DNA of 64,000 nucleotides from Bdellovibrio sp. NC01 (GTDB lineage: Bacteria > Bdellovibrionota > Bdellovibrionia > Bdellovibrionales > Bdellovibrionaceae). The notes under the pieces were generated by a model, which saw nothing but the letters and a program-made list of their open reading frames with translations, searched no databases and had not been told where the DNA came from. The position numbers were made by a program, and so were the translations under genes. Location of the stretch: assembly GCF_006874625.1 (NCBI RefSeq), contig NZ_CP030034.1:3720001-3784000 (forward strand), written 5' to 3'. This document shows positions 2,709-9,280 of the stretch, one piece after another (position 1 is the stretch's first letter; every line of letters starts with the position of its first letter).

Positions 2709-3449
2709 TTATATTGGTTTCTTCGTTGCGGCAATTAATAGAAACATGGGCCTGCGAATTTCATCGCTCCATTCAGGATGTTGCTTTAAGGTGTCCTCAG
2801 TCAAAGTGGGTTCAGCGATTTTATTAATTTCGAAGCCAGCTGACAGCAATGAATCTAAAATTGATGAAAAAGTGCGGTGATATTTAATCACATCATCCGC
2901 CAACCAGCTGGTATGGCGTTTTCCAATTTGATGATAGCCATCAACGGGCCAATGTTGAATTTTACCATTGATATCACGCGCCCAATCTTGTTCTTTTCGG
3001 GCCGTGAAAACGGGATGCTCGGTCGAAAAAACAAATTTGCCGCCATTTTTTAAGATGCGCTGAATTGTCTTACAAACACGGTCAAAATCTTCGACATAAT
3101 GGAATGCGAGTGAACTAAATACCAAATCAAACTCGGCATCTTTGAATGAGATATCCTCGATGGCACCTTGTATATACTCGACACCATCAAGGCCATTTTC
3201 TTGGCGCGCTTTTTCTAACATTTTGAAAGAAAGGTCTAACCCGATGACATGTGCCGCACCATTCTCTTTCAAATATCGGCAGTGCCATCCGTAACCACAG
3301 CCAAGATCTAAAACCTTAAGCCCTTTTAAATCGGGAAGAAGCTTTTTGAGCTCAGGCCATTCGTTAGCCGCGACTAGTCCCATCTTTGAGCGTGGAAGTT
3401 CCGCGTATTTCGAAAAAAATTGTGAGTTGTCGTAAGCGTTCTGTTTCAT
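2709..3449 (-). CDS. Class I SAM-dependent methyltransferase
   Basis: A 246-residue methyltransferase of the UbiE/Methyltransf_11 type. Motif I is VLDLGCGYGWH near residues 45-55, followed by an acidic residue after the next strand (VIGLDLSFKML) and LVFSSLAFHYV as motif IV. The late region contains EHPVFTAR, often seen in small-molecule methyltransferases. It begins only 12 bp after the ECF41-type sigma gene on the same strand, so the two are probably co-transcribed and the enzyme is a plausible member of that sigma factor's regulon. The substrate is unknown. Confidence 0.85.
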   Translation of the reverse strand: MKQNAYDNSQFFSKYAELPRSKMGLVAANEWPELKKLLPDLKGLKVLDLGCGYGWHCRYLKENGAAHVIGLDLSFKMLEKARQENGLDGVEYIQGAIEDISFKDAEFDLVFSSLAFHYVEDFDRVCKTIQRILKNGGKFVFSTEHPVFTARKEQDWARDINGKIQHWPVDGYHQIGKRHTSWLADDVIKYHRTFSSILDSLLSAGFEINKIAEPTLTEDTLKQHPEWSDEIRRPMFLLIAATKKPI

Positions 3450-3461
3450 AAAAGAAGCTTA

Positions 3462-4349
3462 TCATATATTCGGAACTTTTACGTCGATATCATTTAAATC
3501 GTCTTGATTCATGATCACCCCGATTTCTGTGATTTTTCCGTCAGTGATTGTAAATGTAAATACGACGCGTGGTTTTTCGCCCGCGATCCAAGTTGCGCCC
3601 GCTTGACCATTGATAAGTGCCAACTGTGCCGCAACAGCGCGTCCCTTAAAGGTGTCTGCGATAACTGTCTTGCCGTGCAATTCTTTTGCGAATTGCGGAG
3701 CGCCACGATCTTTGTTAGCTGCTGCTGTCGTAATTGCCGTATCGTCTGCGCGCAAAATGATGTTCGGATCTAGTAATTGCAGCAAGCCTTCAAGATTCCC
3801 ACTGCGCGAGGCCGCAAGAAAAGCCGAAACGATCTTTTGATCGCTTTCTTTCTTTGATTCACTTTTAGCACCGCGAACTTTGGTACGTGCTCGACTCGCA
3901 AGCTGTCGGGTTGCGACTTCAGATTTATTTAACACGTTGGCAATTTGCTCAAACTCTATATCAAACAGGTCATGCAAAACGAAGGCAACACGTTCTGGTG
4001 GAGTTAAAGTTTCAAGAACAACAACCAACGCTGGCCCCATGGCATTTGCTAACAGAATTTCTTCTTCTGGGCTTTGAGTTGTGACAGCCTCTTCATAGCT
4101 AACAGGAATAGGTTCTTCTTTTCTGATTTTACGCGAACGAAGCATATCTAAACAGATGCGTGAAACGATTGTTGTCAGCCAGCCACCAAAATTATCAATG
4201 CTTTGTGTATCAGCGCGATTAACTCGGATCCAAGCTTCTTGAATGGCATCGTCTGCTTCTCCTTTCGAGCCCAACAAACGAAATGCAACACCTTCTAAGT
4301 GACTGCGACTTTCTTCAAATTTATTTAACAGCCAATAATTTTCACGCAT
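3462..4349 (-). CDS. ECF41-type RNA polymerase sigma factor with C-terminal SnoaL-like domain
   Basis: An extracytoplasmic-function sigma factor: sigma-2 region (GEADDAIQEAWIRV, then GGWLTTIVSRICLDML), sigma-4 region (LTPPERVAFVLHD, then EIANVLNKS-like helix-turn-helix and RQLASRAR), and about 110 extra residues with the SnoaL/NTF2-like fold that defines ECF41. In ECF41 this extension acts as a built-in regulator in place of an anti-sigma factor. A degenerate NPDKL-like motif (NQDDL) is near the C-terminus. The open frame reaches an ATG at 4385, but the ATG at 4349 has a strong ribosome site (GGTGGGAAG) and follows a predicted ECF41 promoter, so it is preferred (295 residues). Confidence 0.9.
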   Translation of the reverse strand: MRENYWLLNKFEESRSHLEGVAFRLLGSKGEADDAIQEAWIRVNRADTQSIDNFGGWLTTIVSRICLDMLRSRKIRKEEPIPVSYEEAVTTQSPEEEILLANAMGPALVVVLETLTPPERVAFVLHDLFDIEFEQIANVLNKSEVATRQLASRARTKVRGAKSESKKESDQKIVSAFLAASRSGNLEGLLQLLDPNIILRADDTAITTAAANKDRGAPQFAKELHGKTVIADTFKGRAVAAQLALINGQAGATWIAGEKPRVVFTFTITDGKITEIGVIMNQDDLNDIDVKVPNI

Positions 4350-4363
4350 TTTTTCTTCCCACC

Positions 4364-4390
4364 TGTCACATATTCTAAACTTCACTCGTC
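4364..4390 (+). promoter_or_regulatory. Candidate ECF41 promoter toward the YCII gene
   Basis: TGTCACA (4364-4370), a 16-bp spacer and CGTC (4387-4390), as read. This matches the published ECF41 promoter consensus exactly, and it points at the gene at 4481. It lies inside the 5' leader of the sigma gene. Confidence 0.75.
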
Positions 4391-4398
4391 ATATGCAT

Positions 4399-4425
4399 GA
4401 CGGATGAAGAAACCAAGTTGTGACA
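4399..4425 (-). promoter_or_regulatory. Candidate ECF41 promoter of the sigma gene itself (autoregulation)
   Basis: On the minus strand, TGTCACA (4425-4419), 16 bp, then CGTC (4402-4399). It mirrors the plus-strand promoter around a central ATATGCAT, so the two face each other. This implies that the sigma factor transcribes its own gene and the gene opposite. Confidence 0.75.
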
Positions 4426-4480: not shown

Positions 4481-4834
4481 ATGAAATTCGCACTTTTAAT
4501 CTATCAAGGCACAACACCAGTTCCTGGCACAGAAAAATGGAATACATTGTCTCAAGATGAACAAAAAGCGATCTATGCGGACTACGGAAAAATCAACAAT
4601 ACGCCAGGTGTAAAACCCGGAATGCCCTTAGGCGTGCCCTCCGCGGCGAAAACGGTCAAAGTTGTTGATGGCAAAATGACGGTTCAAGAAGGAACTTATT
4701 TAGCTGAGGGTGTTGCGGGTTGCTTTGAATTCGAAGCAGAAAATATAGAGGCAGCATTAAACCTTGCTGCACAAATTCCTGCTGCAAAACTTGGTGGATC
4801 CATTGAAGTCAGACCCATTGAAAAATATTGGTAA
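4481..4834 (+). CDS. YCII/DGPF-domain protein
   Basis: A 117-residue single-domain protein of the YCII-related (DGPF) family: it starts MKFALLIYQG, has the charged middle, and ends with GGSIEVRPIEKYW, the typical family ending. Proteins of this family are regularly encoded beside ECF sigma factors of the ECF41/42 groups. The ribosome site AAAGGAGA precedes the ATG. Its stop codon abuts the stop of the convergent gene at 4835. It is a likely target of the sigma factor at 3462. The biochemical role is unknown; family members have been discussed as small-molecule enzymes or binding proteins. Confidence 0.88.
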   Translation: MKFALLIYQGTTPVPGTEKWNTLSQDEQKAIYADYGKINNTPGVKPGMPLGVPSAAKTVKVVDGKMTVQEGTYLAEGVAGCFEFEAENIEAALNLAAQIPAAKLGGSIEVRPIEKYW

Positions 4835-8152: not shown

Positions 8153-8467
8153 CTATTCGCAAAAAATCTTATATAACGATCTTATCAGCTCAAGAACTCT
8201 TTTATCTACTATCTTATAGTAGACTTGTTTTCCATCGCGTTGCGCCTCTACCAGTCCTTCTAAACGCATACTCTTTAAGAATTGAGAAACTGCAGATTGA
8301 GAAGCGCCACAGGCTTCTTCTATCTCGCCTACAGATTTTTCACCGCTGGCCAGACTACAGAGTATTAACATCCTTTGGGGATGTGAAAGCTGCTTCATTA
8401 AGGCTGCAACTTCTTCACTTTTTTGTCTCATTTCGGACAGGACTTTTGGGTCACCTTGCTTTTTCAT
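8153..8467 (-). CDS. ArsR-family persulfide-sensing repressor, BigR/SqrR-like
   Basis: 104 residues with a winged helix (SVGEIEEACGASQSAVSQFLKSMR, about 45-68, then beta-wing GKQVYYKI). Cys37 sits in LILCSL and Cys103 in the last residues, KIFCE. The 66-residue spacing is that of the redox cysteine pair of SqrR/BigR, which forms a polysulfide bridge and releases DNA when sulfide or persulfide accumulates. A third cysteine is at 53. The gene is divergent from a sulfur operon, and an AT-rich palindrome lies between them, immediately upstream of its own start codon. It probably represses both directions. The PAD-like gene follows in the same orientation. Confidence 0.88.
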   Translation of the reverse strand: MKKQGDPKVLSEMRQKSEEVAALMKQLSHPQRMLILCSLASGEKSVGEIEEACGASQSAVSQFLKSMRLEGLVEAQRDGKQVYYKIVDKRVLELIRSLYKIFCE

Positions 8468-8468
8468 A

Positions 8469-8485
8469 TTATTATATTATAATAA
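8469..8485. promoter_or_regulatory. Candidate BigR/SqrR operator
   Basis: A perfect inverted repeat, TTATTATA-T-TATAATAA, between the divergent regulator and rhodanese operon. It begins two bases upstream of the regulator's start codon. The AT-rich character fits known BigR-type boxes. Confidence 0.65.
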
Positions 8486-8513
8486 CATAAAGTGTCAGTC
8501 AAGGAGAATAACC

Positions 8514-8849
8514 ATGAACACGAATGGCATCCCAGAAATAGCCCCTCAGGAACTCGCCGCCATAATGGACAAAGTAACGCTTATAGATGTGCGCCAACCA
8601 GAAGAATTCGTCGGCGAATTATCACATATTCCCAAAGCTCAACTAGTCCCATTAGGACAGGCGTTGGATACATATCTAACAAATCACAAAAACAAAGATG
8701 AACAGATTGTCTTCGTTTGTCGTAGCGGAGCCCGCTCGGGAAGAGCAACTACGCAGAGTATGGAATTGGGCTTCACCAACACGATCAATCTTCAAGGCGG
8801 CATGATCTTGTGGAACAACCTGAATTTGCCTGTCGCGGGAGGAAAATAA
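8514..8849 (+). CDS. Rhodanese-domain sulfurtransferase
   Basis: A 111-residue single rhodanese domain. The active-site loop is VCRSGARSGRA with Cys69, the sulfane-sulfur carrier. LIDVRQPEEF is the usual N-terminal CH2A motif, and the LQGGMILWNN ending is typical. It would move sulfur between persulfides and thiol or thiosulfate acceptors in the cytoplasm. It is the first gene of the five-gene sulfur operon, with an AAGGAG ribosome site, and its stop overlaps the next start as TAATG. Confidence 0.93.
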   Translation: MNTNGIPEIAPQELAAIMDKVTLIDVRQPEEFVGELSHIPKAQLVPLGQALDTYLTNHKNKDEQIVFVCRSGARSGRATTQSMELGFTNTINLQGGMILWNNLNLPVAGGK

Positions 8850-9280
8850 TGGACCCGTCTTTAGTTCTTTATCCTTTACTAGGAGGCGCAATCATAGGTG
8901 TCGCCGTCACGTTGATGCTGCTGTTTAACGGACGAGTTACTGGCATTAGCGGAATAGTTTCTTCTGCGATATCAACCAGAAGCTCGGATAACATGTGGCG
9001 ATGGGCATTTCTTATCGGTCTTACTATTGGTGGCGTCATCATTCACCTTCTTCATCCTGATCTGCTAACAAATTTATCAAACCGCAATTTCTTGCAGATC
9101 ATTATCGCCGGGGTTCTTGTGGGCTATGGAACCGTCATGGGCAGTGGTTGCACCAGTGGCCATGGAGTCTGCGGAATCAGCCGTTTCTCGATAAGATCTT
9201 TAATTGCTACTGCTACCTTTATACTATTCGGATTTCTTGCGGTCACAGCTTTGCGATTTTTAAATGGAGGCGCGCTATGA
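8849..9280 (+). CDS. YeeE/YedE-family sulfur transporter, first half
   Basis: 143 residues with four hydrophobic segments and the family signature MGSGCTSGHGVCG around residues 95-107, which holds conserved cysteines. Full-length YeeE/YedE (TsuA, SoxT-like) takes up thiosulfate-type sulfur compounds; here the protein is split into two adjacent genes, as is common. The ATG at 8849 is chosen because GGAGGAAAATA precedes it and it overlaps the rhodanese stop. The stop overlaps the next start as ATGA, pointing to translational coupling and a stoichiometric pair. Confidence 0.88.
   Translation: MDPSLVLYPLLGGAIIGVAVTLMLLFNGRVTGISGIVSSAISTRSSDNMWRWAFLIGLTIGGVIIHLLHPDLLTNLSNRNFLQIIIAGVLVGYGTVMGSGCTSGHGVCGISRFSIRSLIATATFILFGFLAVTALRFLNGGAL

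Follow-up and report, generated by a model that had tools for sequence, protein, structure and literature searches.

Facing ECF promoters at a conserved spacing form a probable bidirectional promoter in a sister clade of the ECF41 sigma factors

Between a SnoaL-tailed ECF sigma factor gene and a YCII-related (DGPF-like) gene, in the 64-kb stretch of DNA that was analysed here as a whole (the window), two ECF-type promoters stand face to face in a 62-bp element, with their -10 motifs turned inward and 8 bp between them. We consider that this element is probably a bidirectional promoter of two interlocked halves, on which RNA polymerase with the neighbouring sigma factor works in one or the other orientation, never both together. 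The two motifs, their fixed geometry, its conservation, its restriction to one sigma clade and the swapping of the target gene can all be read from the sequences compared below; the start sites, the recognition by this sigma factor and the exclusion of one polymerase by another are predictions built on them. The features concerned are as follows.

3462-4349, - strand: ECF sigma factor, 295 aa, with sigma2, sigma4 and a SnoaL-like C-terminal domain
4364-4390, + strand: target-side promoter, with -35 TGTCACA at 4364-4370, a spacer of 16 and -10 CGTC at 4387-4390
4391-4398: gap between both -10 motifs, 8 bp, ATATGCAT
4399-4425, - strand: sigma-side promoter (putative autoregulation), with -35 TGTCACA at 4425-4419, a spacer of 16 and -10 CGTC at 4402-4399
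4390, - strand: predicted start G of the sigma gene, by symmetry; it pairs with the final C of the facing -10
4399, + strand: predicted start G of the target gene; it pairs with the final C of the facing -10
4481-4834, + strand: presumed target, a YCII-related (DGPF-like) protein, 117 aa (Pfam YCII, E=7.8e-5)

Both copies of TGTCACA-N16-CGTC are exact matches, on the + strand at 4364-4390 (TGTCACATATTCTAAACTTCACTCGTC) and on the - strand at 4399-4425 (TGTCACAACTTGGTTTCTTCATCCGTC). An earlier note on this DNA had reported one copy per strand, facing each other, and these are indeed the only two matches in the 64-kb window, even with spacers of 14-18 allowed; shuffled window sequence gave a mean of 0.18 matches and never reached two. 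The description of the pair as perfectly mirrored holds in part: the mirror symmetry consists of the -35 and -10 motifs plus CGTCAT/ATGACG, and it does not extend to the spacers, which are identical at 7 of 16 positions, or to the centre of the element, which is not palindromic. Across the 3.98-Mb genome, again with spacers of 14-18, there were 10 matches versus 5 for a reversed control pattern. The genome scan for other TGTCACA-N16-CGTC sites that the note had proposed yielded two more matches with a spacer of 16, one inside a gyrA-like reading frame and the other without an evident target gene start beside it; both look like chance, and a larger regulon in the same genome was rejected. Chance as the origin of the facing pair itself was excluded by the shuffles, by a multi-genome scan and by a sample of loci chosen by protein (both described below). 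A scan of the region for sigma70-type promoters and terminators showed no signal relevant to the element that exceeded shuffled sequence.

Each promoter is directed at one of the flanking genes, and its -35 sits in the leader of the opposite gene. The sigma factor matched Pfam Sigma70_r2 (1.3e-12) and Sigma70_r4_2 (3.6e-9), both above cut-offs, and its tail aligned with SnoaL_2 over the full length of the model at 22.3 bits (cut-off 27). It scored 238 bits with the SigJ model PRK09636 (below the cut-off of 271), and the closest solved structure was that of Mycobacterium tuberculosis SigJ (PDB 5xe7, E=3.7e-40, full-length alignment). The presumed target scored 23.5 bits with Pfam YCII (cut-off 24), and a YCII-related gene adjoins the sigma gene in four same-genus loci and in two further loci, L150 and L130. 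Around this gene pair, the - strand also carries a class I methyltransferase gene (2709-3449), which starts 12 bp past the sigma gene and which the promoter at 4399-4425 may transcribe along with it; a katG-like catalase-peroxidase gene (410-2611, - strand) lies nearby on one side, and genes for an ArsR-type regulator, a rhodanese-like protein and a YeeE-like membrane protein (8153-9280, judged by eye) lie on the other.

The spacing of the pair recurred at every depth of comparison. Four genomes of the same genus, the window's included, hold a close relative of the sigma factor (the other three at about 53% identity), and the facing 62-bp pair with 8 bp between the -10s was present in 4 of 4, though the spacers differ and one locus (L012) has TGTCACG, not TGTCACA, as its target-side -35. 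The genus also has more remote sigma paralogues (L014, L015 and L016; about 30%), whose loci carry the motif twice, back to back, with 20-23 bp between the -35s. Beyond the genus, we scanned about 85,000 species genomes for perfect motifs in facing promoters at any gap of 0-30 bp and obtained at least 119 facing pairs. Among the matches listed, which are rich in Actinomycetota and Rhizobium, the gap was 8 in 114 of 119 and otherwise 9 (three loci), 11 (one) or 12 (one), and nearly all of these matches directly adjoin a related sigma gene. One species with an exact element is Rhizobium johnstonii 3841 (locus L046). The pairs listed came from Actinomycetota, Pseudomonadota, Acidobacteriota, Chloroflexota, Verrucomicrobiota and others, including two MAGs, one deltaproteobacterial (filed under Myxococcota) and one of candidate division FCPU426; counting the phylum of the window itself, a gap of 8 occurs in at least eight phyla.

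A second sample was assembled by sigma protein search and not by motif (86 loci, with uneven taxonomic coverage, for which the search took in 198 genomes of Actinomycetota and 121 from the order that contains Rhizobium altiplani, the source of locus L034), and pairs in it were counted at a tolerant motif score of 19 or more. Facing pairs had a gap of 8 in 13 loci (four of them from the window's genus) and a gap of 9 in 12, with one locus each at 4, 12, 16, 32 and 53; back-to-back pairs had gaps scattered from 0 to 41, and at the same score roughly 0.5 pair of either kind was left per sample once the sequence had been shuffled. The idea that the gap is always 8 was softened, gap 9 being common in this sample. 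At gap 9 the -10 is often GGTC or TGTC; at gap 8 it is nearly always CGTC on both sides.

What is held constant can be told from a logo of 73 non-redundant elements, in which the information lies in the two -35s, the two -10s and the A following each CGTC. The flanking A...T (CGTCA...TGACG) stood at 86% for A and 78% for T, the inner six gap bases carried at most 0.22 bit, and the 40 unspecified positions of the element averaged 39% identity between copies. The gene opposite the sigma gene also changes: in the frames scanned it was CMD (31), NAD-binding/NmrA/epimerase (12), glyoxalase (7) or PNPOx (6), with YCII, DoxX and a few others besides, at least six target families in all. As far as these elements tell, it is the length of the gap and not its sequence that is conserved, apart from the flanking A...T. 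Because the gap stays constant while sequence and targets change, the pattern argues for selection on geometry and not for recent descent, and the symmetric 62-bp unit between the sigma gene and the DGPF/YCII-like gene, as first proposed from the window alone, is well supported by this conservation.

Two ordinary, independent ECF promoters could also have come to face each other by accident in a short intergenic region, with a spacing that was inherited and never selected. Common descent does contribute, in that all pairs at 8 or 9 bp fall in one deep sigma clade, but the spacers have diverged as far as 39% identity on average and the targets are swapped, yet the gap remains 8 or 9 across at least eight phyla, and back-to-back pairs of the identical motif show scattered spacing; we regard independent promoters as unlikely. 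The same repeat might be an operator for a dimeric regulator, instead of or besides a promoter pair, and an inverted repeat with fixed spacing is what operators often are. However, the conserved letters of the 73 elements are those of the ECF -35 and -10 plus one flanking base, the centre and the spacers hold little information, and experiments in other species support the motif as a promoter (PMC3426412, PMC3616915), which leaves an operator a quite improbable reading.

The facing layout is also bounded by the phylogeny of the sigma factors. A tree of 141 sigma factors placed every locus with gap 8 or 9 in a single deep clade with 114 members (support 100), and the remaining 27 included no such locus. 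These 27 carry WLPEP and/or DGGG, the canonical ECF41 signatures (a WLPEP-like motif in 25 of 27), and 113 of the 114 are without both. WLPEP in the sigma2-sigma4 linker is a signature of ECF41 (PMC3426412), and SigJ (5xe7) has it. The window sigma factor has no WLPEP, and RADDT and NQDDL stand at the DGGG and NPDKL places; the label ECF41 that had been given to its promoters calls for correction, and by its protein signatures and its place in the tree the sigma factor belongs to a sister clade of canonical ECF41, not to ECF41 proper. Both window copies match the ECF41 promoter TGTCACA-N16-CGTC, and the neighbouring gene is YCII-related, not a carboxymuconolactone decarboxylase, oxidoreductase or epimerase gene, although many relatives within the clade do adjoin genes of these kinds. 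When loci were sampled by protein, facing pairs at 8 or 9 bp were present in 20 of 44 sister-clade loci versus 0 of 50 canonical ECF41 loci (Fisher P 1.3e-8, with shared ancestry ignored), which makes the layout a property of the sister clade and not of the motif. Further canonical ECF41 loci had back-to-back pairs with gaps of 6-24 bp, and a facing 8/9 pair in none. That the motif itself forces the facing layout was rejected, since canonical ECF41 loci carry the identical motif back to back with variable gaps.

SnoaL-tailed ECF groups besides ECF41 include ECF56, ECF205, ECF294 and ECF295, which are named in the excerpts consulted of PMC8999054 and PMC7730460, and the window's clade may be one of them. 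The likeness lies in a SnoaL-like tail without the NPDKL/WLPEP pair of ECF41, as reported for the ECF56 member SigG1 (PMC7730460, in part), and facing promoters are not mentioned for any of the four groups in those excerpts of the two papers.

The distance between the promoters takes on a possible meaning when transcription starts are placed on the element. In Sinorhizobium meliloti, a mapped start lies 9 nt downstream of the CGTC of the identical motif (PMC3616915), and the sequence there reads CGTC-ATGGTGTC-G, that is, a start G(+1) after C(-1); starts with the motif in Bacillus licheniformis and Rhodobacter sphaeroides are also G (PMC3426412). Among 41 unpaired promoters, a pyrimidine-purine step was most frequent at offset 9 (49%), and at gap 9 the matching G lies at offset 10. 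From the sequence and the start mapped in another species, we predict that transcription in the window begins at 4399 (+) and 4390 (-). With a gap of 8 bp, the G at which each transcript starts would then belong to the last C:G pair of the facing -10. TGACG would act twice, in one direction as the pyrimidine(-1)/purine(+1) initiator and in the other, read as CGTCA, as the -10, a double role that would explain why only gaps 8 and 9 are common. GACG at the start as a trait of single promoters too was rejected (2 of 51 only). With the melted regions taken as -11 to +2, they span 4388-4400 and 4401-4389, that is, the same stretch, and both directions would open the same 13-14 bp. Inverted repeats can also encode RNA hairpins, and the repeat could in principle be an RNA structure or attenuator in a leader; with starts predicted at 4390 and 4399, however, neither transcript would hold both arms, an Rfam search of the element gave no match at gathering scores, and we judge this explanation extremely unlikely.

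On the interlocked bidirectional promoter, as we picture it, the holoenzyme would dock in either of two mirror orientations on the 62-bp element, rightward docking giving the YCII/DGPF-like mRNA and leftward docking the sigma mRNA (positive autoregulation), presumably through direct recognition by the neighbouring sigma factor. Because the footprints would coincide, with predicted starts about 9 bp apart, only a single polymerase could hold the element at any time, and the geometry makes mutual exclusion of two polymerases probable. A departing polymerase would run across the opposite promoter, and the transcripts would diverge without overlap. The sigma factor and its target would likely be induced together from one site, in a ratio set by relative promoter strength, and the built-in competition would likely limit runaway autoregulation.

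How far such competition acts can be judged by analogy. In Escherichia coli, the two directions of bidirectional promoters do not compete at basal expression; competition sets in only upon strong activation of one of them, and it lowers noise (PMC12825309). We would expect the same competition and lower noise here at high sigma activity; because the E. coli promoters are uncompetitive at basal expression, competition between the two directions may have little effect in vivo. The either/or choice between autoregulation and the DGPF gene that the earlier note had envisaged is plausible as alternate use of the element, but as a switch it sits poorly with analogues that compete only under strong one-way activation (PMC12825309). 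The geometry of the bidirectional promoter might also be kept for efficient initiation, either -10 providing the start base and initiator of its partner, with mutual exclusion as a by-product without regulatory use, and we would give this account somewhat less than an even chance. The allowed gaps of 8 and 9 fit the narrow range of start positions after a -10, and the account agrees with the lack of competition at basal levels in E. coli (PMC12825309). Against it, canonical ECF41 promoters, with the identical motif, manage without the facing layout, which efficiency by itself would thus not require. A bolder and rather doubtful extension of the competing bidirectional promoter is that the whole ECF clade, in at least eight phyla, is wired via one obligately self-competing promoter, under selection for each initiation to yield either additional sigma factor or additional effector, fixing their ratio and damping the autoregulatory loop without an anti-sigma factor.

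Facing sigma70 promoters exist in E. coli at argECBH and bioABFCD, where divergent transcripts cross each other's promoter and a repressor operator lies between the promoters. The window element differs from these in having no operator signal and in its predicted use of one alternative sigma factor for both directions. It resembles the sigma70 bidirectional promoters of Warman et al. (2021 and 2026; PMC10268837, PMC12825309), which are pseudo-symmetric DNA on which polymerase takes two orientations, one at a time, with a fixed start-to-start distance and a start base that is a conserved promoter base of the other direction; the window element is likewise pseudo-symmetric, with promoter elements on both strands. 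In the sigma70 type (PMC10268837, PMC12825309), the -10s overlap and the starts are mostly 18 bp apart, whereas the window element consists of two full ECF promoters, has its -10s 8 bp apart and its predicted starts about 9 bp apart, and is flanked by a gene on each side. With ECF41 as described by Wecke et al. 2012 (PMC3426412), the window locus shares the identical -35, spacer and -10, a probable SnoaL-type C-terminal extension of the sigma factor and a presumed target in the gene next door. Their tables already include divergent ECF41 loci in which the motif precedes either gene (36 and 41 of 55), and facing or overlapping geometry is not described in the text of that paper as searched. Canonical ECF41 factors have WLPEP, which the window sigma factor and its clade lack, and the canonical divergent loci compared here have their promoters back to back with variable spacing.

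In the literature searched, mainly outside subscription papers, we found no description of such a facing ECF arrangement. The element is a clean example from nature of two promoters that each lend their parts to the other, in which the spacing takes one or two values and the rest drifts, and it makes open questions on bidirectional promoters (competition, fixed start spacing and noise) testable with one sigma factor and 62 bp of DNA. Protein signatures and promoter layout together tell this SnoaL-tailed sigma clade from canonical ECF41, and the element provides a sequence signature by which a sigma gene can be matched to its target, also where that target is of another family.

Several loci depart from the pattern. 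Loss of one copy in close relatives, which the earlier note had named as evidence that would count against the pair, was seen in 0 of 4 loci within the genus; L150, which comes from a different genus of the family, has this gene pair (sigma factor 55% and target 60% identical) with separated promoters, back to back and about 84 bp apart, one of them imperfect, which means that overlap is not required for the sigma/target gene pair. L130, from a Leptospirillum MAG, has a sigma factor 52% and a YCII target 62% identical to the window's, but a gap of 12, which suggests horizontal transfer and a gap that has since drifted. In a Blastocatellia MAG (L056, 660-1696), a perfect 62-bp facing element lies between CMD and DoxX-like genes, and a search for a related sigma gene found none in this MAG, whose contigs may be incomplete; the locus may represent either two outputs without autoregulation or an incomplete genome. 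Among the sister-clade loci sampled by protein, 24 of 44 had no recognisable pair at 8 or 9 bp.

Two minor observations concern the relatives. Kribbella pratensis (G293, locus L035) holds 14 sigma factors of this superfamily in one genome. In many facing elements (L034 and other Rhizobium), the sigma start codon touches or overlaps the -35 of the promoter for the target, which lies within 1 bp of it in 63 loci (by homology), and in L034 and other Rhizobium the spacer of the target promoter, on the other strand, reads as a Shine-Dalgarno sequence (GGAGGA) for the sigma gene.
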